Positions 36,760-53,325 of a stretch of 64,000 nt of DNA are shown one piece after another. Made by a program: the position numbers and the translations under genes. The notes under the pieces were generated by a model. It did not search any database and had not been told where the DNA came from. It worked only from the letters and a program-made list of their open reading frames with translations. The DNA lies in assembly GCA_015057325.1 (NCBI GenBank), contig SVEQ01000006.1, forward strand, positions 75,324-139,323, in the 5' to 3' direction. The first letter of the stretch is position 1, and the number at the start of each line of letters is the position of its first letter. Source of the DNA: Lachnospiraceae bacterium (GTDB taxonomy: Bacteria > Bacillota > Clostridia > Lachnospirales > Lachnospiraceae).

Positions 36760-37902
36760 ATGAGTTATAAGATTGAAACACGATGTATGCACTTAGATGA
36801 GGACATTGTTCCCTGTGAGAAGACCGGAAGTATATCATTTCCAATATATCAGACGGCAACCTTCTGTCACGAGGGGGTTGGGAAAAGTACAGGTTATGAC
36901 TACACAAGACTTCAGAATCCCACAAGGGAACGTTTGGAAAAGATAGTGGCAAAACTTGAAGGTGGAATTGATGCGCTTGCGTTTTCTTCGGGAATGGCTG
37001 CTGAAGCGGCACTTATGGAATTGTTTAAGCCCGGGGATCATTTAATAGTAGAAAATGATTTGTATGGTGGAAGCGTTAGATTGTTTGATAAGATTAACAA
37101 AAAGAATGGAATTGAGTTTACCGGGCTTGATTTGTGGAAGGATAATGTTGAAGATTATATAAAGGAAAACACAAAAGCGGTTTTTGTTGAGACACCGACC
37201 AATCCGATGATGAATGTTACTGATATACAGGCGCTTGCGGATAAATTAAAAGATAAAGGAATATTACTTATTGTTGATAACACATTTCTGTCACCATATT
37301 TGCAAAATCCATTAAAGCTTGGTGCGGATATTGTTGTACATAGTGGAACAAAGTATTTGGGTGGACACAATGATACATTGGCAGGATTTATAATTGTTGA
37401 TGATGACGAGATAAGTGATAAACTCAGATTTTTGATAAAGACTACCGGTGCGGGACTTTCGCCTTTCGACAGTTGGTTGATTATGCGAGGCATTCAGACG
37501 TTGTCGGTACGCATGGAGAGAGCACAAAGTAATGCAGGGCTTCTTGCAGAGTGGCTTTTAAAACAACCGGGAATAAAGAGAGTAATTTATCCGGGATTAT
37601 CAACACACCCCGGACATGAAATAATGAAGAAACAGGCAAGAGGATTTGGTGCTATGCTTACATTCGAATGTGAAAGTAAAGAGCTTGCGTTAAAACTTCT
37701 TGAGGATACGAAGCTTATACAGTATGCGGAAAGTTTGGGCGGAACGGAAACGCTTATAACCTATCCGCTTACCCAGACACATGCCGACGTTCCGGAGGAG
37801 AAAAGACTTAAGAATGGAATTACGGATAAGGTTCTTCGTTTGTCGGTAGGATTAGAGGCGATAGAGGATTTGATTGCTGATTTTGAGCAGGCATTACAGT
37901 GA
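36760..37902 (+). CDS. Cys/Met metabolism PLP enzyme (cystathionine gamma-synthase/lyase family)
   Basis: A 380-residue fold-type I PLP enzyme. Visible motifs are YDYTRLQNPTR near the start, FSSGMAAEAA, DNTFLSPYLQNPLKLGADIV and SGTKYLGGHND with the PLP Lys. The end reads ESLGGTETLITYP and LRLSVGLEAIEDL. The family includes MetB, MetC, MccB and methionine gamma-lyase, which make or break C-S bonds via cystathionine or homocysteine. The exact reaction cannot be told by eye. The MalY-type enzyme 15 bases downstream suggests a paired gamma/beta step. Confidence 0.9.
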   Translation: MSYKIETRCMHLDEDIVPCEKTGSISFPIYQTATFCHEGVGKSTGYDYTRLQNPTRERLEKIVAKLEGGIDALAFSSGMAAEAALMELFKPGDHLIVENDLYGGSVRLFDKINKKNGIEFTGLDLWKDNVEDYIKENTKAVFVETPTNPMMNVTDIQALADKLKDKGILLIVDNTFLSPYLQNPLKLGADIVVHSGTKYLGGHNDTLAGFIIVDDDEISDKLRFLIKTTGAGLSPFDSWLIMRGIQTLSVRMERAQSNAGLLAEWLLKQPGIKRVIYPGLSTHPGHEIMKKQARGFGAMLTFECESKELALKLLEDTKLIQYAESLGGTETLITYPLTQTHADVPEEKRLKNGITDKVLRLSVGLEAIEDLIADFEQALQ

Positions 37903-37917: not shown

Positions 37918-39096
37918 ATGAGTGAAAAGAATTTGGATTTTGACACAGTCGTTAACAGACGTCATACCGACAGTTTGAAATATGACTTTGCAAAGAGAAG
38001 AGGACTTCCTGAAGACGTGCTTCCACTCTGGGTTGCAGACATGGATTTTAAGACTTCTTCTTACGTGCAGGAGGCATTATCTCAATCTGTAGAGCATGGA
38101 ATATTCGGTTATACCGAAACGGATGTGGACTATTATGAGATAGTCAAGAACTGGATGAAAGAGCAATATGACTGGGAGCTTGAAAGCATAAGATGGCTTG
38201 TTAAGACGCCCGGAGTGGTGTTCGCACTAGGTGCAATAGTTCAAGCATTTACAAAAGAAGGTGATAACGTGCTTATTCAACAGCCGGTATATTATCCCTT
38301 CTCGGAAATAATAACGGATAATGATAGAAATATAGTCAGCAATACGCTGATTGATGATGGAAGCGGAAGATATAAGATAGACTTTGACGATTTTGAGAAA
38401 AAGATTGTCGAGAATAATGTGAAACTGTTTCTCTTAAGCAATCCACACAACCCGGGAGGAGCTGTATGGACAAAAGAAGAACTTATACGCATTGGAGATA
38501 TCTGCTTAAAGCATAATGTTATTATTGCAAGTGACGAAATACATGCAGATTTTGTGTGGAAGGGCAAACACAATGTGCTAGTTAATCTAAAAGATGAGTA
38601 TCGTGATATTGTTATTACATGTACATCACCTACAAAAACATTTAACATTGCAGGCTTGCAAATATCAAACATTATTATTCCCAATACTGCGCTTCGTCGT
38701 ACATTTAAGAAGAAGGTCGCAGCATTCGGCTACAGTCAGGCTAACACGGCCGGAATCATTGCGTGTGAGGCGGCATACACAAAAGGTCAGGAATGGCTTG
38801 CTGCAATCAGAGAATATATATGGAGCAATATCGAATATACAAAAGAGTTCGTAGATAATAATTTAACCGGAGTTAAAATGTTCGTTCCGGAAGGTACGTA
38901 CCTTGTATGGCTTGATTTTTCGGGAACGGGCTTGGAAGATTCAGAGATAAACAGGCGTATAATCCATGAAGCAAAGTTGTGGTTAGATGCCGGCAACATA
39001 TTCGGCGATGCCGGAAAAGGCTTCCAGAGAATTAATGTTGCGTGTCCAAGAAGCGTATTAACAGATGCACTAAAACGGATACAAAAAGTTTTTTAA
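37918..39096 (+). CDS. MalY/PatB-type cystathionine beta-lyase (aminotransferase fold)
   Basis: A 392-residue PLP enzyme. It starts FDTVVNRRHTDSLKYD and has LPLWVADMDFKTS, SNPHNPGGAVWTKEEL, IASDEIHADFVW and TSPTKTFNIAGLQ with the PLP Lys. These are typical of MalY/PatB, which release pyruvate, ammonia and homocysteine (or a thiol) from cystathionine or Cys S-conjugates. That activity would suit the organosulfur operon just downstream. It probably shares a transcript with the upstream PLP gene. Confidence 0.92.
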   Translation: MSEKNLDFDTVVNRRHTDSLKYDFAKRRGLPEDVLPLWVADMDFKTSSYVQEALSQSVEHGIFGYTETDVDYYEIVKNWMKEQYDWELESIRWLVKTPGVVFALGAIVQAFTKEGDNVLIQQPVYYPFSEIITDNDRNIVSNTLIDDGSGRYKIDFDDFEKKIVENNVKLFLLSNPHNPGGAVWTKEELIRIGDICLKHNVIIASDEIHADFVWKGKHNVLVNLKDEYRDIVITCTSPTKTFNIAGLQISNIIIPNTALRRTFKKKVAAFGYSQANTAGIIACEAAYTKGQEWLAAIREYIWSNIEYTKEFVDNNLTGVKMFVPEGTYLVWLDFSGTGLEDSEINRRIIHEAKLWLDAGNIFGDAGKGFQRINVACPRSVLTDALKRIQKVF

Positions 39097-39104: not shown

Positions 39105-39133
39105 TTGACATACATAAAAATGTGTGGTTTAAT
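39105..39133 (+). promoter_or_regulatory. Promoter of the organosulfur operon
   Basis: Perfect TTGACA (39105-39110), 17-base spacer and TTTAAT (39128-39133). Transcription should start near 39140, exactly at the left arm of the leader structure. Confidence 0.8.
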
Positions 39134-39210: not shown

Positions 39211-39229
39211 ATTATTTTTACCCCTAATA

Positions 39230-39282: not shown

Positions 39283-39510
39283 ATGGCAGTAGTAATTGAT
39301 TATGACAAGTGTACGAATTGTAAGCTTTGTTACGATCGATGTCCGGAAGGACTGTTTGGATTAGATGAGCAAGGCAAAGTTTATGTGAAGTACCAACATG
39401 AGTGTTGGTTGTGTGGGGCCTGTCAGATGGATTGTCCATTCGGTGCTATACAGGTTAGATATGAAGAAAATGTAAAACCGATTTTTTTAAAAAGAGACGA
39501 TAAGGAGTAA
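39283..39510 (+). CDS. Ferredoxin-type 2x[4Fe-4S] protein
   Basis: A 75-residue protein with CTNCKLCYDRCP and CWLCGACQMDCP, two classic 4Fe-4S sites. CAGGAGG precedes the ATG. It is encoded 5 bases before a flavoprotein related to AprA, an arrangement like AprB-AprA, but it lacks the long AprB tail. It probably passes electrons to the flavoprotein in the cytoplasm. It is the first gene of the ~11.5-kb operon. Confidence 0.92.
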   Translation: MAVVIDYDKCTNCKLCYDRCPEGLFGLDEQGKVYVKYQHECWLCGACQMDCPFGAIQVRYEENVKPIFLKRDDKE

Positions 39511-39515
39511 CGAAT

Positions 39516-41360
39516 ATGGCATATCAGATTGAAAGATTAAAAACAGATGTTGTTGTTATAGGTGGTGGTCTTGCCGGTTCGCTTGCTTCTATAAGAGCTA
39601 AGGAAGATGGAGCTGATGTAATTGTTTTGGAGAAAGCCAATACAAACAGAAGCGGTAACGCAGGATCGGGACTTGATCACATGTTCAGTTATGTACCACC
39701 GGTACATGAGAAGGTTGGATACACAAAAGACTTTATGAAGAGTGATATGTATCAGATAGCCTTGATGGGACTTGGACTTGGTAATAAGAAGATTGTTGAT
39801 CATTTTGTTGATGTTAGTTATGAGAGAGTTATTTCACTTGAGAAATACGGTGTCAACTTCCGATTTGAAGACAGTCACCTGGCTGAAGGATTCAGACTTG
39901 TACCGCAGTTCCATTCGGTTCCGACAAGCTTTCATTTTGAGGGTAGAGACTTGATGGTTAAGCTTACGGAGGGAATGAAGAAAGCCGGAGTTAATATAGT
40001 CAATCATGCACAGGTAGTTAAGATAATTAAGAACAAAGAAGGCAAAGCATCAGGCGCGATTGCTGTTTCGGACAGAGAGGAAAAGATATATGTGGTTGAG
40101 GCCAAGACAGTAATTCTTACAACCGCAGGCGGTGCAGCAAGAGTAGGAGATAAGATGAACTTCGAGAATCCTTACTTCGAGCATCCGTCATCAACAGACA
40201 GCGGTTGGGGACACACCCTGGCAATGAACGCCGGAGCAGATGTCATCAACATGGAGTTCATGATTAAGAACGGCGGACTTGCTTTCCCACAGTTCACATT
40301 TACAGCAGGAGCACCCGGAGGAACCTGGTGGCCGGCAGCACGAGTTGTGGATGATGAGGGTAACGTCATAGTTGAAAGAGTTACCGACTACAGCATAGAC
40401 GAGCCGGATTACCTTAAGAAGAATGTTGAGATGCTTGATAAGTACGCAATACAGAAGGTTACAATCGGTAAGCTGCTTAACGAAGGAAAACAACTCTATG
40501 TTGATTTGAAAGAAGCAACCGACGAAGAAGTTGAGTACATCAAATGGAGCATGCACAACGAAGGAAAATGTTGGTTGTATCTTAGAAACCTCGAGTACAA
40601 CAATATTGACCTTCGTGATGTGAAGATACCATACAGATTGTTTAGACACGTAACAATTGGTGCAGGTGCAGCGGGAGTTTTGGTTAACGAACGTACAGAG
40701 ACAACAGTTGAGAATCTTTATGTTGCAGGTGACCTCATGGGAGGTGCCGGAACAATCGGAGCACCAACTGCTGTTGTTTATGGAATTGAAGCAGGACTTC
40801 AGGCGGCCAAGAAAGCCAAGGAGACAACATACAGTAATGATGAGTCTTTTGTTGAGAGTCAGATAAATGAAGTTAAAGCCACAGTCGAAAAACTTCGTGG
40901 CAACAAGGGCGGAGAGAAATGGCAGTCGTTACTTGAGAGAGTACATTCGATTGTAGAAACATTCGGAATATATCCGCTTACTGACGGAAAGATCAACTCG
41001 GCGTTAGAGCTTATCAGAAAGCTCAAAGAAGAGGTTAACATTTATGCACCGGATGAGCACGAGTTAACAAGAGCATTTGAAGTTCTTTCAATTATTCAGA
41101 CTGCAGAAGCAATATTTACCGCAGCCGATCTTCGAAAAGAGAATCTCGGACCATTTAAGAGATACAAGGATAATGACACACGTATCTATGGCGAGAGAGT
41201 TCCTGCAGAGAATGCGGTGCTTCCGGAAGCAACAGAGTACGGTTTGTACATAGGAGAAGATGGAACGATACATCATCATATTCATAAGACAAATCAGGAT
41301 GGTGGAGAGATTCCATACAAAGAACAAACGTTAAATGCACCTTATATCAGGTGGGAATAA
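39516..41360 (+). CDS. AprA-like FAD flavoprotein (fumarate reductase/APS reductase superfamily)
   Basis: A 614-residue protein with an N-terminal FAD site (VVVIGGGLAGSLASIRAKEDG, then LEKANTNRSGNAGSGLDHM) and a late FAD motif (LYVAGDLMGGAGTIGAPTAVVYGIEAG). Length and the GSGLDHM region resemble the alpha subunit of adenylylsulfate reductase. There is no sulfate adenylyltransferase or Dsr gene in the window, so dissimilatory sulfate reduction is not supported. With its ferredoxin it more likely reduces an imported organosulfur compound or an oxidised sulfur species. The substrate is unknown. Confidence 0.85.
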   Translation: MAYQIERLKTDVVVIGGGLAGSLASIRAKEDGADVIVLEKANTNRSGNAGSGLDHMFSYVPPVHEKVGYTKDFMKSDMYQIALMGLGLGNKKIVDHFVDVSYERVISLEKYGVNFRFEDSHLAEGFRLVPQFHSVPTSFHFEGRDLMVKLTEGMKKAGVNIVNHAQVVKIIKNKEGKASGAIAVSDREEKIYVVEAKTVILTTAGGAARVGDKMNFENPYFEHPSSTDSGWGHTLAMNAGADVINMEFMIKNGGLAFPQFTFTAGAPGGTWWPAARVVDDEGNVIVERVTDYSIDEPDYLKKNVEMLDKYAIQKVTIGKLLNEGKQLYVDLKEATDEEVEYIKWSMHNEGKCWLYLRNLEYNNIDLRDVKIPYRLFRHVTIGAGAAGVLVNERTETTVENLYVAGDLMGGAGTIGAPTAVVYGIEAGLQAAKKAKETTYSNDESFVESQINEVKATVEKLRGNKGGEKWQSLLERVHSIVETFGIYPLTDGKINSALELIRKLKEEVNIYAPDEHELTRAFEVLSIIQTAEAIFTAADLRKENLGPFKRYKDNDTRIYGERVPAENAVLPEATEYGLYIGEDGTIHHHIHKTNQDGGEIPYKEQTLNAPYIRWE

Positions 41361-41385
41361 TAAATGATTTTAGGAGGAAAGAATT

Positions 41386-42993
41386 ATGAAAAAGAATAAA
41401 GTGATTAAAAAATTAGCAACAGTTTTATTGACAGGTCTCTTGGCGGTGAGCGCAGTGGGATGCGGTGCTGCAGATAACGGAGCAACAGGAAGCGGTGCTT
41501 CAACAGGTGAGAAAGTATTAAATGTAGGTGTAATCAATATAGCAGATACACCGTTTGATCCGGCACAGACAAGCTTGTCATCAATAGAGCAGATTGAGCC
41601 GCTTAACGACACATTACTTCATGTAGATAAGGACGGTAATTATACACCGGGTATTGCAAAGTCTTGGGAGCTTTCAGATGACTACAAGACATTCACAATC
41701 AATCTTAGAGATGATGTGAAGTTCCATGACGGTACAAAACTTACATCTGACGATGTTAAGTTCACATTAGAGTATTACATTTCAGAGGAGTCAAATCAGT
41801 CTGATAAAGGAATCCTTCAGGCTAACATTGATTCAGTAGAGGCAAAGGATGAGACAACAGTTGTTGTTAACTTCAAAGAGCCATTCACAGATTTTGAATA
41901 CCTTATTTCAGAAGGAGGTACAGGAGCAGGAATTATCATTCCTAAGGCTTACTTTGAGAAAGTTGGTTCTGAAGGATTTAACAAAGCACCTATCGGAGCA
42001 GGACCATTTAAGTTCGAGTCATTTGCAGCAGGCGAGGAAATCGTATATACAGCTTTTGAAGATTACTATCAGGGCAAGGCAAAGATTGACCGTCTTGTAA
42101 TCAGACAGTTGGCAGAGGAGAGCACAAAGATTTCAAGTATTCAGGCAGGTGATGTTGATTTCGCACCTATTAACATTAACAGTGTTGAGACAGTAGAGGC
42201 AACACCGGGAGTAAATGTTGAGAAGGTTGATTATTCTAACACACTCGGAGTATTCGCAACAGCAGCAAACGGTGATGACGGAAAGCCATTACAGAATGAT
42301 AAGGTAAGAGAAGCATTATACATTTCAGTTAATCGTGCAGAACTTGTAGATACAGTATTTGGTGGAGATGCTATTGAGTCTCCTGTATGGGGAGTGTTCC
42401 CATTCACAGTTGGTTACGAAGGTGGCAGAGAGAATATCCCTTACGATGTTGAGAAAGCAAAAGATTTGCTTAAGGAAGCAGGATACCCTGAAAACTTTGA
42501 TGACCCTGTAATCAAGCTTTACATTACAGAGACAACAACTTACAACAAAGAGGTTGCACAGTCATTGGTTTCTTACTGGGATGCAATCGGTGCACAGGTT
42601 GAAATCGTAACTACTGACCCTGTAACACTTAGAGGTGGATACACAAAGAAGCCACTTGATCCAGAGTTTACCGGAGTATTGTTCTTCTTCAATCCTCCAA
42701 AGAAATATAGTGCAAATGATGCAATAGCACCATTCTTCCCTACTAACTCTACAATGGAACTTATTAAAGATAATGATGAGTTTGACAATGACGTTCAGCA
42801 GCTTGTTCGTGTAGGTGCACAGGAGAGAACACAACTTGTGAATAAACTTCTTGATACTATCGAAGAAACACACGTAGCAATTCCTATTGTATATCCTAGC
42901 CAGAATTATGCAGTAAGTGAAAATGTTGTTTCATGGGATCAGAACTATTCAGCACACTGGGGCAACTGGTTCTACACATTTGAAGTAAAATAA
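41386..42993 (+). CDS. ABC transporter substrate-binding lipoprotein (SBP_bac_5, Opp/Dpp/Gsi type)
   Basis: A 535-residue protein with a lipoprotein signal ending VSAVGC, then a short Gly/Ala/Ser tether. The family 5 solute-binding fold is shown by GIAKSWELSDDYKTFTINLR, DDVKFHDGTKLTSDDVKF, GAGPFKF and VREALYISVNRAELVD. This family binds oligopeptides, glutathione, nickel chelates and opines. The operon context points to a sulfur-containing ligand such as glutathione or an S-conjugate; this is inference. TTAGGAGG precedes the ATG. Confidence 0.93.
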   Translation: MKKNKVIKKLATVLLTGLLAVSAVGCGAADNGATGSGASTGEKVLNVGVINIADTPFDPAQTSLSSIEQIEPLNDTLLHVDKDGNYTPGIAKSWELSDDYKTFTINLRDDVKFHDGTKLTSDDVKFTLEYYISEESNQSDKGILQANIDSVEAKDETTVVVNFKEPFTDFEYLISEGGTGAGIIIPKAYFEKVGSEGFNKAPIGAGPFKFESFAAGEEIVYTAFEDYYQGKAKIDRLVIRQLAEESTKISSIQAGDVDFAPININSVETVEATPGVNVEKVDYSNTLGVFATAANGDDGKPLQNDKVREALYISVNRAELVDTVFGGDAIESPVWGVFPFTVGYEGGRENIPYDVEKAKDLLKEAGYPENFDDPVIKLYITETTTYNKEVAQSLVSYWDAIGAQVEIVTTDPVTLRGGYTKKPLDPEFTGVLFFFNPPKKYSANDAIAPFFPTNSTMELIKDNDEFDNDVQQLVRVGAQERTQLVNKLLDTIEETHVAIPIVYPSQNYAVSENVVSWDQNYSAHWGNWFYTFEVK

Positions 42994-43017
42994 TAAGCTT
43001 TTGCCGGGAGATTTACT

Positions 43018-43935
43018 ATGAGATATCTTGCAAAAAAAATAATAGAAGCATTAATTACAATTTTCATAGTGACGATTATCGTATTTCTTGCAATCCACTC
43101 AAGTGGTGATCCGATTAACAGCCTGTTGCCGGATAGTGCTACGGAAGCACAAAGGCAGGAGCTGACAGAGAAGCTCGGACTTGACAGACCACTTGTTGAG
43201 CAGTACGGACGATTTGTTAAAGATGCATTATCAGGAGATCTTGGTACATCTTACACAAGCAAACGTCCGGTGCTTGAGATGATTGCCGAGAAGCTGCCTT
43301 ATACATTTGAACTTGCACTTGTAGCAATAATAATTGCTTTCATTGTAACAATCATTTTCGGTAGCCTGGCAGCTATTTGGAAGAACACGATATTGGATAG
43401 AATAATACTTGCAATTGCAGCATTTTTCAAAGCGTCTCCTATCTTCTTTATAGCTATACTTGCAGTACAGCTATTGGGAGTTAAGCTTAGAGTCCTACCC
43501 GTTGCGGGTGCCGGTACACCTCTACATCTGGTGATGCCGGCAGGACTTCTGGGTCTTGCGATTGCCTCCGATATGACAACACTTTTAAGAAGCAATATGA
43601 TTGCAGTGTTGGAGAGCGATTTCATCAAGTTTGGAAGACTTAGAGGTCTTCCGGAATACAAGGTGATATTAAAACATGCACTTCGTAATTCGTTCTCGTC
43701 AGTGTTGGCACTTAGTTCATTTATTTTTGCAAGTCTTATTTCCGGAAGTATAGTCGTTGAAACGATATTTGCATGGCCGGGAGTCGGAATCCTTTCTTAC
43801 AACTCGGTAATATCGAGAGACTTTCCGGTGGTACAGGGAATCGTTTTAATCCTTTCAATATTAACAATTTTACTCTCATTTACAATGGACGCATTGCTTG
43901 CAATGTTAGATCCGAGAATCCGTAAGAGTGTGTAG
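43018..43935 (+). CDS. ABC transporter permease (DppB/GsiC type)
   Basis: A 305-residue permease with the family start MRYLAKKIIEALITIFIVTII, about six membrane segments, and the EAA loop region (FIKFGRLRGLPEYKVILKHALRNSF) that contacts the ATPase. It ends LDPRIRKSV, the usual DppB end. It forms the channel with the next gene product. Confidence 0.94.
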   Translation: MRYLAKKIIEALITIFIVTIIVFLAIHSSGDPINSLLPDSATEAQRQELTEKLGLDRPLVEQYGRFVKDALSGDLGTSYTSKRPVLEMIAEKLPYTFELALVAIIIAFIVTIIFGSLAAIWKNTILDRIILAIAAFFKASPIFFIAILAVQLLGVKLRVLPVAGAGTPLHLVMPAGLLGLAIASDMTTLLRSNMIAVLESDFIKFGRLRGLPEYKVILKHALRNSFSSVLALSSFIFASLISGSIVVETIFAWPGVGILSYNSVISRDFPVVQGIVLILSILTILLSFTMDALLAMLDPRIRKSV

Positions 43936-43944
43936 GTGATTGCA

Positions 43945-44784
43945 ATGAAGAAGTTATATAAACAAAAACAAGTAAATAGTTTGCCAATCGTGTCATTGGT
44001 GGTCATTGGAATATTTGTTTTAAATGGACTCTTTGGTTCGTTGATACTTCCGAAAGATCCTACAGAAACGGATTTGGTTAATAAGCTGCTTCCTCCGGTT
44101 TTCTTCGGAGGTACATGGAATTATCCGCTTGGTACTGATGAACTCGGAAGAGATGTTTTAAGTAGAATTATCGCAGGTGGAAGAGTTTCACTTATTGTAG
44201 CAGCTGCAGCAATTGTTGTCGGAGGAATAATAGGAACTGCACTTGGAATTATTGCAGGCTACTACGAAGACCTTGCAGACACAATTATTACACGACTTAC
44301 TGATGCATCACTTGCATTTCCAAGCATCTTGCTGGCACTGCTTCTTTCGATAGGAATCGGTCCCGGTGAGAAGGCAGCGATTATCGCGATAGCATTTGCA
44401 ATGTGGGCAAAATACGCAAGAACAGTAAGAAGCGAAGTACTGATAATTAAGAAAGCTAATTACATAACGCAGGCGAAAATCATGGGAGCCGGTGACTTAA
44501 GAATAATAACAAGACACATTCTACCAAACATCAAGGACATGATAATAGTTATGGTTTCGTTAGAGGTTGGAATGTCAATTATTTCCGAAGCATCATTAAG
44601 TTTTTTGGGACTTAGCGTTGTGCCCCCTACACCCTCCTGGGGACAAATGATAGCTGATGGTAAGAATTATTTTCAAAACGGCTGGTGGGTTTCCGTATTT
44701 CCTGCGTTAATAACAATAATAACCGTATTGTCATTTCAGAGGTTTGGCAATTGGCTTAAGGTTTCTAAGGGAGGAAAAGTATGA
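43945..44784 (+). CDS. ABC transporter permease (DppC/GsiD type)
   Basis: The ATG at 43945 follows AGGTG; a GTG at 43936 is also in frame. The 279-residue protein has an N-terminal membrane anchor, then GTDELGRDVLSRIIAGGRVSL typical of DppC, and an EAA region (ANYITQAKIMGAGDLRIITRHILPN). It ends near the usual FGNWLK. It overlaps the next ATPase gene by 4 bases (ATGA). Confidence 0.94.
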   Translation: MKKLYKQKQVNSLPIVSLVVIGIFVLNGLFGSLILPKDPTETDLVNKLLPPVFFGGTWNYPLGTDELGRDVLSRIIAGGRVSLIVAAAAIVVGGIIGTALGIIAGYYEDLADTIITRLTDASLAFPSILLALLLSIGIGPGEKAAIIAIAFAMWAKYARTVRSEVLIIKKANYITQAKIMGAGDLRIITRHILPNIKDMIIVMVSLEVGMSIISEASLSFLGLSVVPPTPSWGQMIADGKNYFQNGWWVSVFPALITIITVLSFQRFGNWLKVSKGGKV

Positions 44785-45743
44785 ATATTCTTGAGGTTAA
44801 GAATCTTGTAAGCCAACTTAATACGGAAGACGGAGTATTACACATTATAAATGATGTAAGCTTCGCGGTGAAAGAAGATGAGTGTTTTGGAATCATTGGA
44901 GAATCCGGTTGTGGTAAAACAATGACTTCAATGTCGATTCTTGGATACTCTGACCGAATCGGATTAAAAGCTGTATCCGGAGAGATTCTTTTTAAAGGAG
45001 AAGATGTACTTAAGTTTTCAAAGAAAAGACTTAGAGAGTACAACGGCAAGGAAGCAGCAATCATATTGCAGGATCCGATGCAGGCGTTAGATCCTCTATT
45101 CACCATAAAAGACCAAATGATTGAAACCATAAGAAGACACCAGAAGGTTTCAAAAAAAGAAGCAGAAAAGATAATGATTGAAACAGCAGAAAGTCTTTCG
45201 GTTGCCAAAGAAAAACTTAACTGTTATCCACATCAGTTAAGTGGCGGAATGCTTCAGAGAATAGTGGGTGCGATGGTGTTAAGTTGCAGACCAAAGCTCA
45301 TTATTGCTGATGAACCAACAACGGCGCTGGATGTGACTATTCAGCTTCAGTATTTGAAATTATTAAAAAGACTCCAGAAGGAATACCACACGGCATTAAT
45401 TTTCATTTCGCATGACATCAAAGTTATTTCGATGATGTGTGACAGAATTGCCGTAATGTATGCCGGGGAGATTGTGGAAACGGGAACAAGGGACGATTTG
45501 TTTTATCACCCAAAGCACCCGTACACACAGGCGCTTTTTAAAGCGACCAACATAGATGGTAATATTCGTGAAAGATATGAAACTATAGATGGTGCGCCGC
45601 CAAACCTCAAAGAGGAGATTGCAGGATGTCCGTTCGCGGAACGTTGCCAGTACGCAACGGATGCATGTATAAGCGGCAAACCGGAGGTTGTTAAGATAAA
45701 TGATGAGCATACCGTAAAATGCCGGAGGATAGCCGATGAGTAA
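44781..45743 (+). CDS. ABC transporter ATPase (DppD/OppD type)
   Basis: A 320-residue ATPase with Walker A GESGCGKT, signature LSGGMLQR, Walker B LIIADEPTTALD and the C-terminal Oligo_HPY Cys motif (GCPFAERCQYATDAC), which in some relatives binds an Fe-S cluster. The start overlaps the permease stop. It works as a heterodimer with the next gene product. Confidence 0.95.
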   Translation: MNILEVKNLVSQLNTEDGVLHIINDVSFAVKEDECFGIIGESGCGKTMTSMSILGYSDRIGLKAVSGEILFKGEDVLKFSKKRLREYNGKEAAIILQDPMQALDPLFTIKDQMIETIRRHQKVSKKEAEKIMIETAESLSVAKEKLNCYPHQLSGGMLQRIVGAMVLSCRPKLIIADEPTTALDVTIQLQYLKLLKRLQKEYHTALIFISHDIKVISMMCDRIAVMYAGEIVETGTRDDLFYHPKHPYTQALFKATNIDGNIRERYETIDGAPPNLKEEIAGCPFAERCQYATDACISGKPEVVKINDEHTVKCRRIADE

Positions 45744-46743
45744 TGTTATTGAACTGAAAAACGTTGATAAATCTTATACAAACAGCGGCTTCTTAAAGAA
45801 GACTACATGCGCTCATATTCTCAAAAATATTTCCTTGCAGGTTGAGAAAGGAACGACACTCGGACTTGTTGGCGAGTCGGGGTCAGGTAAGACCACAACA
45901 ACAAGAATGATTCTTCGTCAGGAAAAACCGACAAACGGCGAACTCTTCTACGAGGGCAAGAATGTTGAAGAACTTACCAAAGAAGAGGAGGAAGAATATC
46001 GCAACAATGTACAGGTGGTATTCCAGAATCCATACAGCTCTCTTAATCCCAAAATGAGAGTCGGAGAGATAATCGCAGAGCCTTTGGTTATAACGGGAAA
46101 GTACAACAAGGAAGAAATAAAAAAACGTGTGAGAAGCATCATGGAAAAGGTTGGTCTTGCACAGGATTATGTTGAAAGATTTCCAAGTGAGTTTAGTGGT
46201 GGACAGCGTCAGAGAATAGCAATTGCAAGAGCGCTTATTCAGAATCCGCAGCTTGTGATATTAGATGAGCCGGTATCGGCATTAGACGTATCTGTCAGAG
46301 GACAGATTATGAACCTGTTAAAGAGATTGCAGGAGAAAAACAAGACTACATATATTTTTATTTCGCATGATATTGCAACGGTAGGTTTCTTAAGTGACAC
46401 AATCGCGGTTATGTATTTCGGTACGATTGTTGAGTATGGAAAGACAGAGGACATACTGGAAAACTACAGACACCCGTACACGGAAATGCTCATTTCTTCT
46501 GACTCGGTTAGAAACTTAAGTGAGGCGGAGGAAGAAAGCGGAGAGATACCTTCGCACTATGATGAACCAAAAGGTTGTCCTTTCGCCGGAAGATGTAAGT
46601 ATGCAACTGATGAGTGTAGAAATGTTACCCCGCAGCTTAAAGATATTGGCGATGGACATAAGGTTGCTTGTCACAACGCGGAAAGCATTACGCTTAAGTC
46701 CGTTGTTAAGATTAACAGAAGGAAACCGGAATATCAGATTTAG
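45736..46743 (+). CDS. ABC transporter ATPase (DppF/OppF type)
   Basis: A 335-residue ATPase with Walker A GESGSGKT, signature FSGGQRQR, Walker B LVILDEPVSALD and a C-terminal CPFAGRCKYATDEC motif. It overlaps the preceding ATPase gene by 8 bases. It completes a five-component Opp-type importer. Length is normal. Confidence 0.95.
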   Translation: MSNVIELKNVDKSYTNSGFLKKTTCAHILKNISLQVEKGTTLGLVGESGSGKTTTTRMILRQEKPTNGELFYEGKNVEELTKEEEEEYRNNVQVVFQNPYSSLNPKMRVGEIIAEPLVITGKYNKEEIKKRVRSIMEKVGLAQDYVERFPSEFSGGQRQRIAIARALIQNPQLVILDEPVSALDVSVRGQIMNLLKRLQEKNKTTYIFISHDIATVGFLSDTIAVMYFGTIVEYGKTEDILENYRHPYTEMLISSDSVRNLSEAEEESGEIPSHYDEPKGCPFAGRCKYATDECRNVTPQLKDIGDGHKVACHNAESITLKSVVKINRRKPEYQI

Positions 46744-46753
46744 GAGGTGCAGC

Positions 46754-47764
46754 ATGGCTTCGGATTTTGAAGGAATTGAATTGTTTGAGAGAACATTTCG
46801 CCATCAGATCAAAGAGAATGGTGAGATTGGCGAATTGGATTTTATGTTTAAAAAGAAGTTTGGTGATGGAGAGGATGAGTGGCCGGTAGAGGCTGACAGA
46901 TACAGAATCGTATGGATGCCGGGTTGTCCTCACGCACATAAAGTTATTATAACGAGAAAACTTCTCGGACTTGATAAGGTTATAAGTCTTGCGACAACAG
47001 GAATCTTCAGAACACCGAAGGGCTGGGTGTTTTCGGAAGACCCTGATGGTTTGGATCCTGTGTTAAAGATACATTATCTGCATGACATTTATACAAGACA
47101 CGATCCTACATACACGGGACGTTCAACGGTTCCGACAATTGTGGATACGATAACAGGTCAGGGTGTTAACAATGACCATTATTATATTCCTATTTATTTC
47201 AACACGGCATGGAAGAAGTTCCATAAGGAGAATGCACCGGACTTGTATCCGGAGGAGATAAGAGGTGATATTGATGAACTTAATAAATTTGTGTATGAGC
47301 GTATCAACACCGGGGTCTATAAATGCGGTTTTGCTAGAAATCAGAAATATCTTGATGCTGCATACGACAGATTCTTCGAAGCACTTGATTTGATGGAGGA
47401 ACATTTATCTACGAGAAGATTTCTTTTCGGAGACCATATAACGGATACGGATATAAGATTGTATCCGTCGCTTGTAAGATTCCAGGTGACTTATCATCAG
47501 CTCTTTAGAGCAAACAAAAAACGCTTGGAGGATTATCCGAATCTTTGGGCGTATGCGAGAGACTTGTATCAGACAGAAGGCTTTGGTGAGACAACCTATC
47601 TTGATTTGATTAAGAAGCATTATCAGTTGTCGCCACATCTTCGTGCTTTGTTTGGAAATGTTGACGGCATTTATGCAAAAGGACCGGATGTTTCATCTTG
47701 GAATCTTCCTCATGGAAGAGAGAAGTTGTCCGGTGATAAGGATAAGTTTAAAAGATTTAACTAG
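46754..47764 (+). CDS. Xi-class glutathione transferase (glutathionyl-hydroquinone reductase-like)
   Basis: The ATG at 46754 follows TAGGAGGT. The 336-residue protein has the Xi-class layout: a thioredoxin-fold half with the catalytic Cys in MPGCPHAHK (usual form CPWAHR), RSTVPTIVD for thiol binding, and a helical C-terminal half (FGDHITDTDIRLYPSLVRF). Xi enzymes reduce glutathionyl-quinones or other S-conjugates, releasing a second thiol. Clostridia seldom make glutathione, so the thiol used here is an open question. Its place after an Opp-type importer suggests cleavage of an imported conjugate. Confidence 0.9.
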   Translation: MASDFEGIELFERTFRHQIKENGEIGELDFMFKKKFGDGEDEWPVEADRYRIVWMPGCPHAHKVIITRKLLGLDKVISLATTGIFRTPKGWVFSEDPDGLDPVLKIHYLHDIYTRHDPTYTGRSTVPTIVDTITGQGVNNDHYYIPIYFNTAWKKFHKENAPDLYPEEIRGDIDELNKFVYERINTGVYKCGFARNQKYLDAAYDRFFEALDLMEEHLSTRRFLFGDHITDTDIRLYPSLVRFQVTYHQLFRANKKRLEDYPNLWAYARDLYQTEGFGETTYLDLIKKHYQLSPHLRALFGNVDGIYAKGPDVSSWNLPHGREKLSGDKDKFKRFN

Positions 47765-47779
47765 AGGGAGGAAATGAAA

Positions 47780-48691
47780 ATGAAAGTTGTAAACAGTGCA
47801 TTGGAATTAATCGGTGAAACACCGTTAATAAAATTAAATCATTTGGTTCCCGAAGGAGCTGCAGATGTTTATCTTAAGTTGGAAAGCTTTAATGTAGCGG
47901 GAAGTATCAAAGACAGAACCGCACTCAGCATGATTGAAGGAGCGGAAAGAGAAGGACTTATCAAGCCCGGTGAGACAACACTTGTTGATTCGACAAGCGG
48001 AAATACCGGTATTGGTCTTGCACTTGTCGCTGCACTTAAAGGTTACAGACTTGTTATTGTTATGAGTGAGCTGGCAAGTATCGAGCGCAGAAAACTTCTT
48101 CAGGCATATGGTGCCGAGATTGATCTTGTGCCGGCATCACCAAAAGGAATACTTGCCGACATGGAGGAACTTGACAGACTGGTTGACGAGAAAGGATATT
48201 TCCCATTAAGACAATTTGAGAACAAGTACAATCCGTATATTCACAAGACAACAACAGGACCTGAAATATATGAGCAGTTAGATGGCAAGATTGATGCATT
48301 TGTTTCTGCTGTTGGAACAGGAGGAACATTTACAGGAATTGCAGAATATTTAAAGGAGCAGAACAAGGACATACTTACATATGCGGTTGAGCCGGAGGGT
48401 TCACCGGTGCTTCGAGGCGGCAAGCCGGGACCTCATAAGATTCCGGGAATCGGTTCAGGTATTATTCCGGCAATCCTTAATAGGGAAATCATAGACGAAG
48501 TTATAGATGTATCTGATGAAAATGCTGCAGAGACCGCAAAGCAACTTGCGCTCAAAGAAGGATTGTTCGTCGGCCCATCATCGGGAGCAGCAACTTATGC
48601 AGCTATCGAGAAAGCAAAGATACTTGGCAAAGGCAAAACGATTGTTGCGATTGCACCTGACGGTGGAGACAGATACGTTTCACAGTTATAA
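47780..48691 (+). CDS. Cysteine synthase family PLP enzyme (CysK paralogue)
   Basis: The start at 47780 has GGAGG 8 bases upstream; an ATG at 47774 is too close to it. The 303-residue protein has NVAGSIKDRTA (PLP Lys), [17 protein letters not shown] and VGTGGTFTG. The family makes cysteine from O-acetylserine and sulfide, but paralogues use other thiols or acceptors. A second, more typical cysK is at 51864. Its position among GST genes suggests a specialised thiol acceptor or lyase; this is inference. Confidence 0.9.
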   Translation: MKVVNSALELIGETPLIKLNHLVPEGAADVYLKLESFNVAGSIKDRTALSMIEGAEREGLIKPGETTLVDSTSGNTGIGLALVAALKGYRLVIVMSELASIERRKLLQAYGAEIDLVPASPKGILADMEELDRLVDEKGYFPLRQFENKYNPYIHKTTTGPEIYEQLDGKIDAFVSAVGTGGTFTGIAEYLKEQNKDILTYAVEPEGSPVLRGGKPGPHKIPGIGSGIIPAILNREIIDEVIDVSDENAAETAKQLALKEGLFVGPSSGAATYAAIEKAKILGKGKTIVAIAPDGGDRYVSQL

Positions 48692-48729
48692 GAAGACATT
48701 TAAAGCCAAATGGCAGAAAGGCAGACACG

Positions 48730-49626
48730 ATGGAAGTTATTAAGGTGACAAAGGAGTGGCAAAGAGCTGCTTCTAACTGGGTGAGAATTAAGACTATGGT
48801 CGAAGGAAAAGGTATCGCATACGATATCGAATTCGACGATGACAATATAGAAAATCCGGATTATTTTCTCGTTTTGGACGAAGAAAAACCTGTAGCAACT
48901 TGTCGTGTTGAGTATTCTGACACGACAACCGCAAAGATTGAGAGAGTAATCGTAATTCCGGAATACCAGGGTAAGGGCGTCGGAAGACTGATGATTACCG
49001 AGGTGGAAAAGAAGTTAAGAACTTACGGTTACAACAAGTCGTTTATAAGCAGTAGAGAAACCAAAGTAGGCTTTTATGAGAAACTCGGATACACTCCGGA
49101 TTGGGATGGACTTGAGGAACATGAAGTATTTAATTGTGTTCCTACACAGAAATATCTTGATGTGTTAGACATAGATGCTGTGCAAAATGATTCATCAAAC
49201 GAGTATATCAAATGGCTTGATGAGTATCTGTATGACCCTGCGTTTCGTGCAGGCTCTGCAAAGACTCAGGAGAGTTATGAAGAAAACTATGACAAGGTGT
49301 TTGATGCTATTGATAAGATTGAGGATATATTATCGAAGAAGAAATATATTACCGGTGATGAGATAACCAAGGCAGACGTTTTTCTGTATTCATTTCTTGT
49401 AAGATTTGAGGCGGTATATTATTTTGCTTTCAGACTTAACAGAAACAAGTTAAGAGATTTAAATAATATTTGGAGATATGTAAGGGAATTGTATAGCATT
49501 GAAAGTTTTGCTAAAAAGACGGATTTTGAGGAGATAAAAAAAGAGTATTATCTTGCTCTTGATGATGAGAGAAATCCATACCATTTAGTGCCGGACGGTC
49601 CGGATGTGACAGATTGGAGCATTTGA
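48730..49626 (+). CDS. GNAT acetyltransferase fused to a Xi-GST-type C-terminal domain
   Basis: A 298-residue protein. Residues ~1-140 are a GNAT domain with the acetyl-CoA loop in VIPEYQGKGVGRLMITEVE and GFYEKLGY near its end. Residues ~150-298 align by eye with the helical half of the Xi-GST two genes upstream: FDAIDKIEDILSKKKYITGD against FEALDLMEEHLSTRRFLFGD, and shared LVRF, RNKLRDLNNIWRYVRELY and DGPDVTDW-like ends. The thioredoxin-fold half with the catalytic Cys is absent. It may acetylate a thiol-conjugate breakdown product recognised by the GST part. I know of no characterised protein of this design. Confidence 0.85.
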   Translation: MEVIKVTKEWQRAASNWVRIKTMVEGKGIAYDIEFDDDNIENPDYFLVLDEEKPVATCRVEYSDTTTAKIERVIVIPEYQGKGVGRLMITEVEKKLRTYGYNKSFISSRETKVGFYEKLGYTPDWDGLEEHEVFNCVPTQKYLDVLDIDAVQNDSSNEYIKWLDEYLYDPAFRAGSAKTQESYEENYDKVFDAIDKIEDILSKKKYITGDEITKADVFLYSFLVRFEAVYYFAFRLNRNKLRDLNNIWRYVRELYSIESFAKKTDFEEIKKEYYLALDDERNPYHLVPDGPDVTDWSI

Positions 49627-49628
49627 TT

Positions 49629-50750
49629 ATGACAGATTATCCTAACACAAACAGAATAGTCGATGAGTTTACGGAACTTACTTCCATAGATTCGGTAAGT
49701 TTTCGAGAAAGAGTATTTGCTGATGCTTTGAAAGAAAAACTTACAGCACTTGGTTTTGAGTTTTTTGAGGATGAAGCAGGGGATGCGTACGGTGGTAATG
49801 CCGGCAACATTTATGCTTTTTTAAAAGGCAATTCCGATGCGGAGCCGATTCTTCTTTCGTCTCATATGGATACGGTACAACCCGGAATCGGAAAGAAGCC
49901 GATTGTAAGAGATGACGGTAGAATAACAAGTGACGGAACAACAGTGTTGGGAGCCGATGATGTGGCAGGCATTGTCGAGATATTAGAGGGTATCAGAATT
50001 ATCAAAGAGTCCGGTGTTCCTCATAGAAGCATAGAGCTTTTGTTTCCCATCGGCGAGGAGGAATATATTAAGGGAACGGACGTGTTCGATTTTTCAAAGA
50101 TTAAATCAAAGGATGCCTACGTTCTTGATATGAGTGGCAAGGTTGGCAGCGCTGCAATAAAAGCACCGTCGATAATATCATTTGAGGTCGTCGTCAAAGG
50201 CAAGGCTTCACATGCGGGTTTTCATCCGGAAGAAGGAATAAATGCTATACAGGCAATGGCGTATGTCGTGTCATCTGTTTCACAGGGCCGAATCGATGAA
50301 GAAACAACTCTTAATATCGGTACGATAAGTGGCGGAACGGCAACTAACATAATATCGGAGCAATGCGTATGTACCGGTGAGATAAGAAGCTATGTTCACG
50401 AAAAAGCGTTAGCGCAACTTGATAAGTTAAAGGCTGCATTTGAGGAAGCAAAAAATAAGTATGGTATCGACTACGAGTTCAAGACAGATATCAACATGAA
50501 GGCATACGAGATTGATAAGTCTTCAAGTGTTGTGAGTAGATTTGAAAATGTATGTTCAAAACTTAATCTTCCCGGAAATCTGACGGAGACTTTCGGAGGA
50601 AGTGACAACAACAACTTTGTTAAGAACGGGATAAGCGGGATCGTTCTTTCCTGTGGAATGTACAACGTTCATTCAAAGGCGGAGTACACAACTATAGAAG
50701 ATTTGGAAAAAGGCTCAAAATTAGTGGCAGAACTTATATTGGCAGAATAA
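49629..50750 (+). CDS. M20 family peptidase (PepT/PepT2-like)
   Basis: The ATG at 49629 follows GGAG by 9 bases and is 2 bases after the upstream stop. The 373-residue zinc peptidase has SSHMDTVQPG (His and Asp), GADDVAGI, GEEEYIKG (catalytic Glu pair), VLDMSGKVG, ASHAGFHPEEG (dimerisation domain) and a late HSKAEY. M20 enzymes remove amino acids from small peptides. In this operon it could split the peptide part of an imported tripeptide or conjugate. It is the last gene of the operon. Confidence 0.9.
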   Translation: MTDYPNTNRIVDEFTELTSIDSVSFRERVFADALKEKLTALGFEFFEDEAGDAYGGNAGNIYAFLKGNSDAEPILLSSHMDTVQPGIGKKPIVRDDGRITSDGTTVLGADDVAGIVEILEGIRIIKESGVPHRSIELLFPIGEEEYIKGTDVFDFSKIKSKDAYVLDMSGKVGSAAIKAPSIISFEVVVKGKASHAGFHPEEGINAIQAMAYVVSSVSQGRIDEETTLNIGTISGGTATNIISEQCVCTGEIRSYVHEKALAQLDKLKAAFEEAKNKYGIDYEFKTDINMKAYEIDKSSSVVSRFENVCSKLNLPGNLTETFGGSDNNNFVKNGISGIVLSCGMYNVHSKAEYTTIEDLEKGSKLVAELILAE

Positions 50751-50818: not shown

Positions 50819-51730
50819 ATGACACTTATGCAGTTGAAATATGTAATCAAGGTTTCTGAATCGTCATCAATGAGTGAGGCGGCGAGAGATTTGTTTATAT
50901 CACAGCCGAGTCTTTCGGAGTCTATTAAGGACCTCGAAGAAGAGGTGGGACTTGAGCTTTTTAACAGAAGCAACCGTGGAATTACGTTGACTAATGAAGG
51001 CAAAGAGTTTATCGGTTATGCCAAGCAGGTGGTTGAGCAGTACACACTTATGGAGTCGAAGTATATTGAAAAGACTGCTGAAAAGAAGAAGTTTTCCGTG
51101 TCCATGCAACATTACAGCTTTGCGGTTAATGCGTTTGTTGAACTTGTCAAGCAGTTTGGAATGGACAAGTACGAGTTTGCGGTTAAGGAAAGCAGAACTT
51201 ATGATGTTATAGATGATGTAAGAACTTTTCGTAGCGAACTTGGAATACTCTATGTAAATGATTTCAACCGTAAGGTTATGATGAAGCTTTTTAAGGATAA
51301 TGATTTGGAGTTTGTTCCGATTGTTGATTGTCCTATATATGTCTATCTATGGAAGAAACACCCTCTTGCAAAAAAAGAGTCGATAGATATAGAAGAACTG
51401 TCTGAATATCCTTGTCTTGCGTTTGATCAGGGTACCAACAACTCATTTTATTTTGCGGAGGAAGTACTTAGTACTTATGAGTATAAGCAGATTATCCGTG
51501 CTAATGATAGAGCTACAATGCTTAATCTCATGGTTGGACTTAACGGATATACATTGTGTTCCGGAATTATATGTGAGCCATTAAATGGAGTTGATTTCTG
51601 TGCGGTCAAGCTTGAGTCTGATGAGATAATGACCATTGGATATATCAAGAGAAAGAATGTAACGCTTACAAAGCTTGGCCAGAAGTACGTTGAGGAACTT
51701 TCAAAGTACCAGGATCAGGCAATGCACTAA
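50819..51730 (+). CDS. LysR-family transcriptional regulator
   Basis: The start at 50819 is 10 bases from GGAGG. The 303-residue protein has an N-terminal winged HTH (LMQLKYVIKVSESSSMSEAARDLFISQPSLSESI is its helix region) and a LysR effector domain. TTGACA at 50756 could be its -35, but no good -10 is spaced correctly. Given its place between the organosulfur operon and cysK, it may sense a sulfur metabolite such as O-acetylserine (as CysB-type regulators do); the ligand is not readable. Confidence 0.9.
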   Translation: MTLMQLKYVIKVSESSSMSEAARDLFISQPSLSESIKDLEEEVGLELFNRSNRGITLTNEGKEFIGYAKQVVEQYTLMESKYIEKTAEKKKFSVSMQHYSFAVNAFVELVKQFGMDKYEFAVKESRTYDVIDDVRTFRSELGILYVNDFNRKVMMKLFKDNDLEFVPIVDCPIYVYLWKKHPLAKKESIDIEELSEYPCLAFDQGTNNSFYFAEEVLSTYEYKQIIRANDRATMLNLMVGLNGYTLCSGIICEPLNGVDFCAVKLESDEIMTIGYIKRKNVTLTKLGQKYVEELSKYQDQAMH

Positions 51731-51863: not shown

Positions 51864-52799
51864 ATGAGTAATATTAAAGAGAGTTCATTAGAATTAATCG
51901 GAGGAACACCAATTTTGAAATTAAGCAGATATTCAAAGCAGGCAGGAGTTGAAGGTGCAACTATCCTTGGTAAGCTTGAGTATCTTAATCCGGCAGGTTC
52001 TGTTAAGGACCGTATCGCACTTGCAATGATTGAGGATGCAGAGGCTAAGGGATTACTTAAGCCGGGTGCAACAATTATAGAGCCTACATCAGGTAATACA
52101 GGTATCGGTCTTGCAGCTGTTGCAGCAGCAAAGGGATATCATGCTATACTTACACTTCCTGACACAATGAGTGTTGAGAGACGTAATCTTCTTAAAGCAT
52201 ACGGTGCAGAGCTTGTACTTACAGAAGGTGCAAAAGGAATGAAGGGAGCTATCGCAAAAGCAGAAGAACTTAAGAACGAGATTGAAGGTTCTGTAATTCT
52301 TGGACAGTTCGTTAACCCTGCTAACCCTAAGGTTCATCGTGAGACAACAGGTCCTGAGATTTGGGAGCAGACAGACGGCAAGGTTGACATCTTCGTTGCC
52401 GGTGTTGGTACAGGTGGAACAATAACGGGTGTTGGTGAGTATTTGAAGTCACAGAATCCTGATGTAAAGGTAGTTGCAGTAGAGCCTGCAGGAAGCCCTG
52501 TACTTTCAAAGGGTACAGCAGGACCTCATAAGATTCAGGGTATCGGTGCAGGATTCGTACCTGACACATTGAATACTAAGGTATATGATGAGATTCTTCC
52601 TATCGACAATGATGATGCATTTGCAGAGGGCAAGGCTTTTGCTGTAAGTGAAGGTATCCTTGTAGGTATCTCTTCAGGTGCAGCACTTAAGGCTGCTTCA
52701 ATTCTTGCAGCTCGTCCTGAAAATGCAGGTAAGACAATCGTTGCATTGCTTCCTGATTCAGGTGACAGATATTTATCGACAGCATTATTTAGCAACTAG
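51864..52799 (+). CDS. cysK: Cysteine synthase A
   Basis: The ATG at 51864 is 8 bases after GGGAGG. The 311-residue enzyme has the start [27 protein letters not shown] (PLP Lys), [31 protein letters not shown] and [10 protein letters not shown]. It condenses O-acetylserine with sulfide to give cysteine. Codon use (many GCA, ACA, CTT, GGT) is more biased than in the paralogue at 47780, consistent with high expression from its consensus promoter. Confidence 0.94.
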
Positions 52800-52893: not shown

Positions 52894-53325
52894 ATGAAAG
52901 TTTCAACAAGAGGTAGATACGCAATTCGAGTAATGCTCGATCTTGCAGAATATAGTAATGGAGAATGTATACCATTAATGGACATTGCCAAGAGACAGGA
53001 TATATCAGAAAAATATCTTGAGGCGATTGTTTCATTACTTGTCAAAGCAGGACTTTTAACTGCAACCCGTGGTAAGAAGGGAGGATACAGACTTACAAGG
53101 TCTCCGGAGGAATATACACTCAAGGATATTTTACAGATTACGGAAGGCGCGTTTGCACCTGTATCGTGTCTTGAAACTTCGCCTAATACATGCGAGCGTG
53201 CAACTACATGTAAAACGCTCAAGGTATGGACAGATTTTCAGGATTTGGTTAACGACTATTTTGCGGGAATTACTTTGGCAAGTTTGCTTGAAGATAACTC
53301 TTGTGCAGACAATTATTCCATATAA
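52894..53325 (+). CDS. Rrf2-family regulator with Cys cluster (IscR-like)
   Basis: A 143-residue regulator with the Rrf2 start MKVSTRGRYAIRVMLDLAEY and a winged HTH (ISEKYLEAIVSLLVKAGLL, GKKGGYRLTRSPEE). Three Cys (CLETSPNTCERATTC, near residues 93-107) sit where IscR and NsrR bind an Fe-S cluster, although the spacing is C-x7-C-x5-C. It may sense Fe-S or redox state. It lies directly after cysK, and a second Rrf2 gene lacking these Cys follows. Confidence 0.9.
   Translation: MKVSTRGRYAIRVMLDLAEYSNGECIPLMDIAKRQDISEKYLEAIVSLLVKAGLLTATRGKKGGYRLTRSPEEYTLKDILQITEGAFAPVSCLETSPNTCERATTCKTLKVWTDFQDLVNDYFAGITLASLLEDNSCADNYSI

Follow-up and report, generated by a model that had tools for sequence, protein, structure and literature searches.

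The locus analyzed here lies in a 64,000-nt stretch of a Lachnospiraceae genome (contig SVEQ01000006.1; hereafter the window), where eleven plus-strand genes at 39283-50750 encode a ferredoxin, an AprA-like flavoprotein, an Opp-type importer, a Xi-class glutathione S-transferase (GST), a CysK paralogue, a GNAT acetyltransferase fused to a GST C-terminal domain and a PepT-like M20 metallohydrolase. A preliminary description had proposed that these genes form one operon and this observation is confirmed, as all eleven are open and the spacing between them runs from overlaps up to 38 bases. They are flanked by cgl and malY/patB upstream and by lysR, cysK and two rrf2 genes downstream. Two of the flanking genes had been missed, namely a cystathionine gamma-lyase/synthase-type gene immediately 5' of malY (36760-37902), which probably shares a regulon with the operon, and lysR (~50819-51730), which follows the operon and precedes the downstream cysK. 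The oppB, C, D and F genes were identified from their sequence and from matches to homologous importers, and the remaining operon genes via Pfam/NCBIfam. The features are:

36760..37902, plus strand: cystathionine gamma-lyase/synthase-type pyridoxal-phosphate enzyme (cgl/metB); PF01053, 482 bits; passes no NCBIfam cut-off among those shown
37918..39096, plus strand: MalY/PatB-type C-S lyase; TIGR04350, 449 bits (cut-off 340)
39105..39133, plus strand: candidate operon promoter, TTGACA-17-TTTAAT, read by eye
39283..39510, plus strand: 75-residue ferredoxin with two C-x2-C-x2-C-x3-CP motifs; sequence and Pfam
39516..41360, plus strand: AprA/fumarate-reductase-superfamily flavoprotein, subfamily unassigned; FAD_binding_2
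41386..42993, plus strand: oppA, family-5 substrate-binding lipoprotein; PF00496
43018..43935, plus strand: oppB permease; sequence, homologue at the equivalent position in locus L022 of another genus
43936..44784, plus strand: oppC permease; sequence, homologue in L021/L022
44781..45743, plus strand: oppD ATPase; sequence, homologue in L021
45736..46743, plus strand: oppF ATPase; sequence, homologue in L021
46754..47764, plus strand: Xi-class GST; Cys58, D141-H142, Tyr189/247/290
47774..48691, plus strand: cysK paralogue (cysteine synthase A); TIGR01139, 379.8 bits (cut-off 350.95)
48730..49626, plus strand: GNAT acetyltransferase fused to a Xi-type GST C-terminal domain; PF00583 and PF13410
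49629..50750, plus strand: PepT-like M20 metallohydrolase; ATG at 49629, open frame from TTG 49614
50819..51730, plus strand: LysR-type regulator; PF00126/PF03466; start placed from model alignments, whose first aligned residue is 10
51864..52799, plus strand: second cysK; labelled by cysK homology
52894..53325, plus strand: Rrf2-type regulator; label of the preliminary description, sequence and likeness to the second Rrf2
53461..53883, plus strand: second Rrf2-type regulator; label of the preliminary description, sequence

The central observation concerns the company the GST keeps. A core of Xi-class GST, GNAT and importer, often joined by cysK, malY, cgl or M20, recurs in many unrelated bacteria and across phyla; the Opp importer and the AprA-like gene lie outside this core. 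Two samples were examined: 22 stretches around the GST from genomes of relatives, 21 of which hold the GST, and 79 loci from species genomes, taken from the best 80 matches and biased toward the window's own kind (L042 = L026, L076 = L028 and L103 = L017 are common to both samples). The species-genome loci include Clostridia, Treponema, Bacillales, lactic acid bacteria, Gilliamella, Snodgrassella, Pectobacterium and Actinobacteria and comprise 68 non-actinobacterial loci and 11 controls, ten actinobacterial and one from Chloroflexota. Counting with models built from these loci, over six-frame open frames on the same strand within 6 kb of the GST, we found a GNAT in 46 of the 68 and an importer component in 44, followed by CysK (25), M20 (17), Cgl (11) and MalY (10). 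At least one partner is present in 62/68 loci, versus 0/11 controls. LysR is found near the GST in 7/68. An earlier count over six genes to either side gave similar figures (GNAT 41, importer 42, CysK 23, M20 17, Cgl 11, MalY 10, any partner 62, GNAT with M20 11 of 68), with a single permease-like gene found within the control loci and GNATs making up 45 of 525 genes near the GST versus 3 of 494 far genes. Its longest-frame gene calls were poor in the G+C-rich actinobacterial loci, where several GSTs were missed, hence the six-frame recount, which raised GNAT from 41 to 46 and left the controls at 0/11. In the open-licence literature searched, no paper described a sulfur cluster that pairs a GST with a GNAT.

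The partnership varies in its extent. Only the GST-GNAT pair is left in the Bacillus and Psychrobacillus loci, Gilliamella and Snodgrassella combine the GST with an amino-acid-type importer and a GNAT, and the Lachnospiraceae loci additionally hold cysK, malY, cgl, lysR and M20. Locus L015 (genome G004, same genus) has the identical eleven-gene order at 98-100% identity, and a rearranged set at 42-69% identity is found in L021/L022, where an additional GST (36%) and an additional AprA are also present. This recurrence, in L015 and in rearranged form in L021/L022, argues that the gene set is more than a chance neighbourhood. GST matches are themselves rare, with 8/144 relatives, 14/392 genomes of the order and 3/398 of the phylum, own genome included each time; among plasmids, homologues occur in 173 records, all below 60% identity. 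The two enzymes have also exchanged domains. In the window fusion the GNAT domain occupies residues 32-121, and its GST C-terminal part best matches a 208-residue protein adjoining a GST gene in L021 (51% identity) and is 43-49% identical to GST C-terminal domains, while several relatives carry a second GST C-terminal domain on a GST of 480-490 residues. Such exchange between GNAT and GST proteins argues for a joint function. Some clusters hold three to five divergent Xi-class GST genes (L024 9291-12820, L037 8.9-13 kb, L043 8-17.8 kb), which suggests a range of substrates. The five-GST cluster L043 has no GNAT and encodes at 11469-15445 a glutamate-cysteine ligase, a class-II glutamine amidotransferase, an ATP-grasp-like protein and an esterase; gamma-glutamyl perhaps replaces acetyl there as the protecting group.

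The window GST belongs to the Xi-class/hydroquinone reductase family, with E-values of 1.1e-86 to 3m1g and 2.7e-53 to YqjG. Its most likely start is ATG 46754, since the open-frame GTG at 46520 would fall deep within oppF. The catalytic Cys58 is kept, in a CPHAHK motif rather than CPWA, and all three substrate-site tyrosines are present (Tyr189, 247 and 290), a triad described as binding substrate in Xi-class enzymes (PMC6345682). The cysteine is invariant in a 22-row GST alignment. Across 119 cluster GSTs, a set that leaves out four labelled control-locus sequences and all fragments below 250 residues, the cysteine is kept in 117, Tyr189 in 118, Tyr247 in 119 and Tyr290 in 104. The thiol site is changed. 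In glutathione-type enzymes the E/D-S of an N-[E/D]-S motif holds the gamma-glutamyl group. This motif is present in 4/4 glutathione/gamma-Glu-Cys plasmid references (Azospirillum, Pseudoalteromonas, Halorussus and Ruegeria) and in three solved Xi enzymes (YqjG, 6gzf and 4fqu); the window GST has NNDHYY instead. After the cis-proline strand, N-D-[Y/H/F] is found in 107/119 cluster GSTs and 13/13 actinobacterial sequences. In a tree the cluster and actinobacterial GSTs group together while the four glutathione-type references fall outside (support 0.97), a grouping that the sampling favours. The thiol of mycothiol is that of N-acetylcysteine. MstX of C. glutamicum is described as a Xi-class enzyme that depends on mycothiol, reduces a mycothiolyl-hydroquinone and has a single essential cysteine (PMC6815410). 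Given the actinobacterial-type motif and the use of mycothiol by MstX, we infer that the cluster GSTs may handle an N-acetylcysteinyl sulfur supplied by the GNAT. The fold family, catalytic cysteine and substrate-site tyrosines are common to the cluster GSTs, MstX and the glutathionyl-hydroquinone reductases such as YqjG. The cluster GSTs differ in having the ND[YHF] motif of actinobacterial rather than glutathione types and in sitting with a GNAT and sulfur genes, frequently in several copies; the window active site reads CPHAHK instead of CPWA.

The genes around the GST point to sulfur compounds. The proposal that the locus imports an organosulfur compound, cleaves its C-S bond and returns the sulfur to cysteine is supported, in that the PatB-type lyase and CysK pass their models and these partners recur elsewhere. 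The Opp importer did not fare as well as a general feature, since most GST-cluster relatives use cystine-type PAAT or Ssu/Tau-type importers, and a peptide substrate is therefore not supported as a general feature either. The PAAT binding proteins of relatives match the cystine model at E 1.5e-24 without reaching its cut-off. The window OppA falls below all NCBIfam cut-offs tested (GsiB, NikA, OppA and DppA), with NikA at 165.7 and GsiB at 155 bits far short; its closest solved relatives are AgaA (6hlx) and YliB/GsiB (1uqw).

A known system offers a parallel. B. subtilis is described as first acetylating S-(2-succino)cysteine on its nitrogen; a monooxygenase that requires O2 then cleaves the product, and an M20 enzyme takes the acetyl group off. 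YxeP/ScmP, YtnL and YhaA are described as M20 N-acetylcysteine deacetylases encoded in clusters with an acetyltransferase and a monooxygenase; other bacteria use a lyase instead of the monooxygenase, and according to the authors the strategy of acetylating, breaking and deacetylating persists (PMC12757645, PMC9706529). The GST clusters would fit into this series as one more variant of the strategy. The window resembles the scm (yxe), ytn and yha clusters in grouping an importer, an acetyltransferase and an M20 hydrolase. It differs in having a Xi-class GST in place of the ScmK-type monooxygenase or 2SL lyase, a PepT-like M20 and an Opp importer, and extra PatB, Cgl, CysK and AprA-like genes. 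Profile scans detected neither ScmK monooxygenase nor 2SL lyase among the eleven operon genes. In other clusters, 54 unlabelled neighbours gave 53 Pfam families, and neither enzyme is among the first 25 of these. The M20 enzyme had been assigned to peptide trimming, which stands as one option; the alternative is N-deacetylation, suggested by the M20D amidohydrolase that occupies its place in other clusters. The M20 is of this type in 10/68 loci, and the one representative scanned scores 373.6 bits to TIGR01891 (cut-off 153.75).

The following scheme, with its substrate, its thiol and its reactions and their order, is what we infer from the genes, their co-occurrence, the conserved residues and the changed motif. 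We give an even chance to the reading that the cluster carries out an oxygen-independent salvage of S-substituted cysteine by amine protection, GST-mediated C-S cleavage and deprotection. The Opp importer would bring in an S-substituted cysteine or a small peptide of one, and the GNAT part of the fusion would acetylate its alpha-amine. Cys58 of the Xi-class GST would then attack the sulfur of the conjugate, the organic group departing in reduced form as with Xi reductases, and a second thiol would free N-acetylcysteine from the GST. The PepT-like M20 would remove the acetyl group or trim the peptide. Sulfur from derivatives cut by beta- or gamma-elimination would be regained by the two lyases (PatB/MalY and Cgl) together with both CysK enzymes. 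The ferredoxin/AprA-like flavoprotein could supply low-potential electrons, most likely reducing the organic part of the conjugate or the leaving group.

Several observations weigh against this salvage scheme. The window M20 is PepT-like and lies outside the family of known deacetylases: it scores 318.1 bits on TIGR01883, above the cut-off of 274.25, but 59.0 on the amidohydrolase model TIGR01891, which requires 153.75, and its closest solved relative is 3gb0, 'Peptidase T' (E 9.9e-74), with yxeP (1ysj) at E 3.5e-06; it is thus not of the ScmP type (M20D). Under the 6-kb count GNAT and M20 occur together in just 13/68 loci and 22/68 have no GNAT, five of them on contigs below 8 kb, and a labelled GNAT is present in 12 of the 21 GST-bearing stretches from relatives. 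The partner counts are not independent, because the models were built from the same loci and the loci were picked by GST likeness, and several loci come from close relatives. Twelve of the 119 GSTs deviate from N-D-[YHF]; these include a CPHSNK subgroup with NEA or NDP that is close to the window GST, three GSTs with NNY and one with neither the cysteine nor NDY. MstX is reported as inactive on 1-chloro-2,4-dinitrobenzene and on a phenacyl-type conjugate (PMC6815410), and broad C-S cleavage is an extrapolation, as Xi reductases are known for hydroquinone-type conjugates. Finally, the window's own genome encodes a PF04262 glutamate-cysteine ligase. A gamma-glutamyl thiol may still serve, given this ligase and the L043 cluster with a ligase and no GNAT. 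Within C11 36029-42980 (L119 6029-12980) the PF04262 gene lies beside an O-acetylhomoserine-sulfhydrylase-like gene (PF01053), a 471-residue protein without a Pfam match and IscU- and NifS-like genes recognized by eye.

Some of these points would fit a role in thiol-disulfide or quinone detoxification, with the Xi GST as a stress enzyme acting on gamma-Glu-Cys, glutathione or cysteine and with import and CysK feeding the thiol pool. MstX is described as guarding C. glutamicum against oxidants and as having thiol transferase and dehydroascorbate reductase activities (PMC6815410), and the ligases in the own genome and within L043 are in keeping with such a role. We nevertheless regard it as unlikely. 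PF04262 is found equally in 2/20 genomes tested with the GST and 2/20 without it, being absent from 18/20 GST-bearing genomes, the GST lacks the glutathione-type motif, and its tight linkage to GNAT, importer and C-S enzymes is unlike the contexts of actinobacterial and proteobacterial homologues. On the same PF04262 counts, in a search that did not cover PF04107-type ligases, glutathione was rejected as the general thiol.

The preliminary description had offered a different chemistry, in which a peptide-like sulfur compound or sulfonate is taken up, desulfurated by the AprA-like flavoprotein and ferredoxin, and its sulfide passed to CysK. The two proteins do form a genuine unit. Four AprA-like copies are known from three lineages (the genus of the window and G004, G145 with two, and L036), with 41-50% identity to the window copy and 98.7% for G004, and in all three lineages a ferredoxin of 72-75 residues adjoins the gene (L021 11975-12193 and L036 5739-5963). 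The unit is rare and is not like the sulfate enzymes. Matches occur in 2/295 genomes of the order (E 1e-60) and 2/341 of the class (E 1e-100), these being the own genome and G145; the G004 (L015) and L036 copies were found by other routes. The viral contigs scanned held no relative of the AprA-like protein, and plasmid homologues occur in 77 records, all below 60%, the best listed at 24-30% identity.

The closest solved relative of the AprA-like protein is the 3'-phosphoadenylylsulfate (PAPS) reductase alpha subunit of Methanothermococcus (8a8o, E 1.2e-25), followed by adenylylsulfate (APS) reductase; together with the ferredoxin adjacent in 3/3 lineages, this favours reductive desulfuration. 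In the Methanothermococcus enzyme, an AprA-like flavoprotein is described as being joined to a ferredoxin subunit that carries two clusters (PMC10322725). The window pair shares with such two-subunit reductases (AprAB, MtPAPSR) a flavin adenine dinucleotide (FAD) flavoprotein of the fumarate reductase superfamily and a small 2x[4Fe-4S] ferredoxin. It differs in scoring far under the AprA and AprB cut-offs: the best NCBIfam model for the flavoprotein is PRK08275 (177.8 bits, cut-off 587), AprA gives 59.3 versus 641.75, and the AprB model 32.6 versus 135.65, placing the pair outside AprAB. The AprA-bearing genomes also lack partner enzymes, with PF01747 and PF01077 (NIR_SIR) both 0/3 in G000 (own), G004 and G145, in searches whose controls were positive in 11 and 5 of 14 and which did not cover CysDN-type sulfurylase. 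As these three genomes have neither domain, the pair is probably not an APS/PAPS reductase and sulfite formed as an intermediate could go no further. The model scores and missing partners led us to reject the flavoprotein as an APS/PAPS reductase or first sulfonate step, and a route from sulfonates to sulfide is unlikely with no known siroheme enzyme for sulfite. Nearly all GST clusters, moreover, lack the AprA-like gene. Reductive desulfuration is thus harder to credit than detoxification, even with an L036 copy that follows two nitrogenase-component-1 genes and precedes Ssu/Tau-type import genes.

That L036 neighbourhood bears on what the pair may reduce. The D subunits encoded in clusters L103 and L036 are MarDK-like, with E 4e-80 and 2e-76 to 9fmg versus 4.5e-31 and 1e-24 to the best NifD, and 9FMG is described as MarDK2H2 of methylthio-alkane reductase, a C-S-cleaving enzyme (PMC12552129). 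Compared with methylthio-alkane reductase (MarHDK), such genes are present in the L103 and L036 clusters and none is in the window; they are just a sign of C-S bond handling in those clusters. From the MarD-like neighbour in L036 one may speculate that the ferredoxin/AprA-like pair reduces C-S or adjacent C=C/quinone bonds. Nitrogenase-like genes also lie beside GST, CysK and Ssu/Tau-type import genes in L103 1750-6567, L045 1378-6297, L091 5896-8762 and L036 996-3862, and are possibly a gut-bacterial branch of methylthio-alkane reductase.

Alternatively, the cluster could import mixed disulfides (cystine, cysteinyl-glutathione or peptides) and reduce them, the Xi GST serving as a thiol transferase, an activity described for Xi enzymes (PMC6815410). 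This would suit the cystine-like PAAT binding proteins of most relatives, but it is the least probable reading, as it needs no C-S lyase and leaves the GNAT, the M20 and the 2-5 divergent GST copies per cluster unexplained.

Regulatory signals around the operon are modest. The candidate promoter at 39105..39133 is absent from the promoter scan list owing to the scan's rule for the second hexamer, and the promoter-like matches in the window (57 versus 53.1 expected by chance) show no excess; a 12/12 consensus promoter lies before the second cysK, at 51759-51787. Terminator-like sites on the plus strand are found at 36594-36623, 53341-53373 and 55109-55135, with none between the first two, a pattern that weighs little because the scan total is 9 versus 11.1 expected by chance. 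No Rfam family reaches its gathering score in the window, which gives no support for a known RNA or riboswitch ahead of the operon; a SNORA31 match within 39090-39290 on the opposite strand (E 0.94) was set aside as chance. The gap between malY and the ferredoxin gene holds an inverted repeat, AAACCTACAA...TTGTAGGTTT, at ~39147-39215 within a longer hairpin, a possible operator. The repeat is kept only in the near-identical genome G004, and the folding of ~39147-39200 is not better than that of shuffles (z -1.09, 29/200 equally good). Near the sulfur genes, at 53965-55110, the window also encodes a rhodanese-PP-loop (TtcA-like) fusion (PF00581 and PF01171), a domain pair likewise found near GST genes in L059 (1849-2991).

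If the salvage scheme is correct, it would add to the ScmK monooxygenase and the 2SL lyase a third means of degrading S-substituted cysteines, one that needs no oxygen, and would account for the retention of multiple GST genes in bacteria that show no evident glutathione synthesis. More tentatively than the scheme itself, the GNAT-linked Xi proteins may be mercapturate (N-acetylcysteine-conjugate) reductases, a new class of enzyme by which bacteria, anaerobes among them, undo the S-conjugation of cysteine by host or plant detoxification without oxygen, with the ferredoxin-driven AprA-like flavoprotein as a second new reductive module acting on these compounds in the window lineage. The salvage scheme would also give the unassigned AprA-like flavoprotein a testable role, and it suggests how gut and rumen bacteria could reverse mercapturate-type conjugates of drugs, plant phenols or damaged cysteine.

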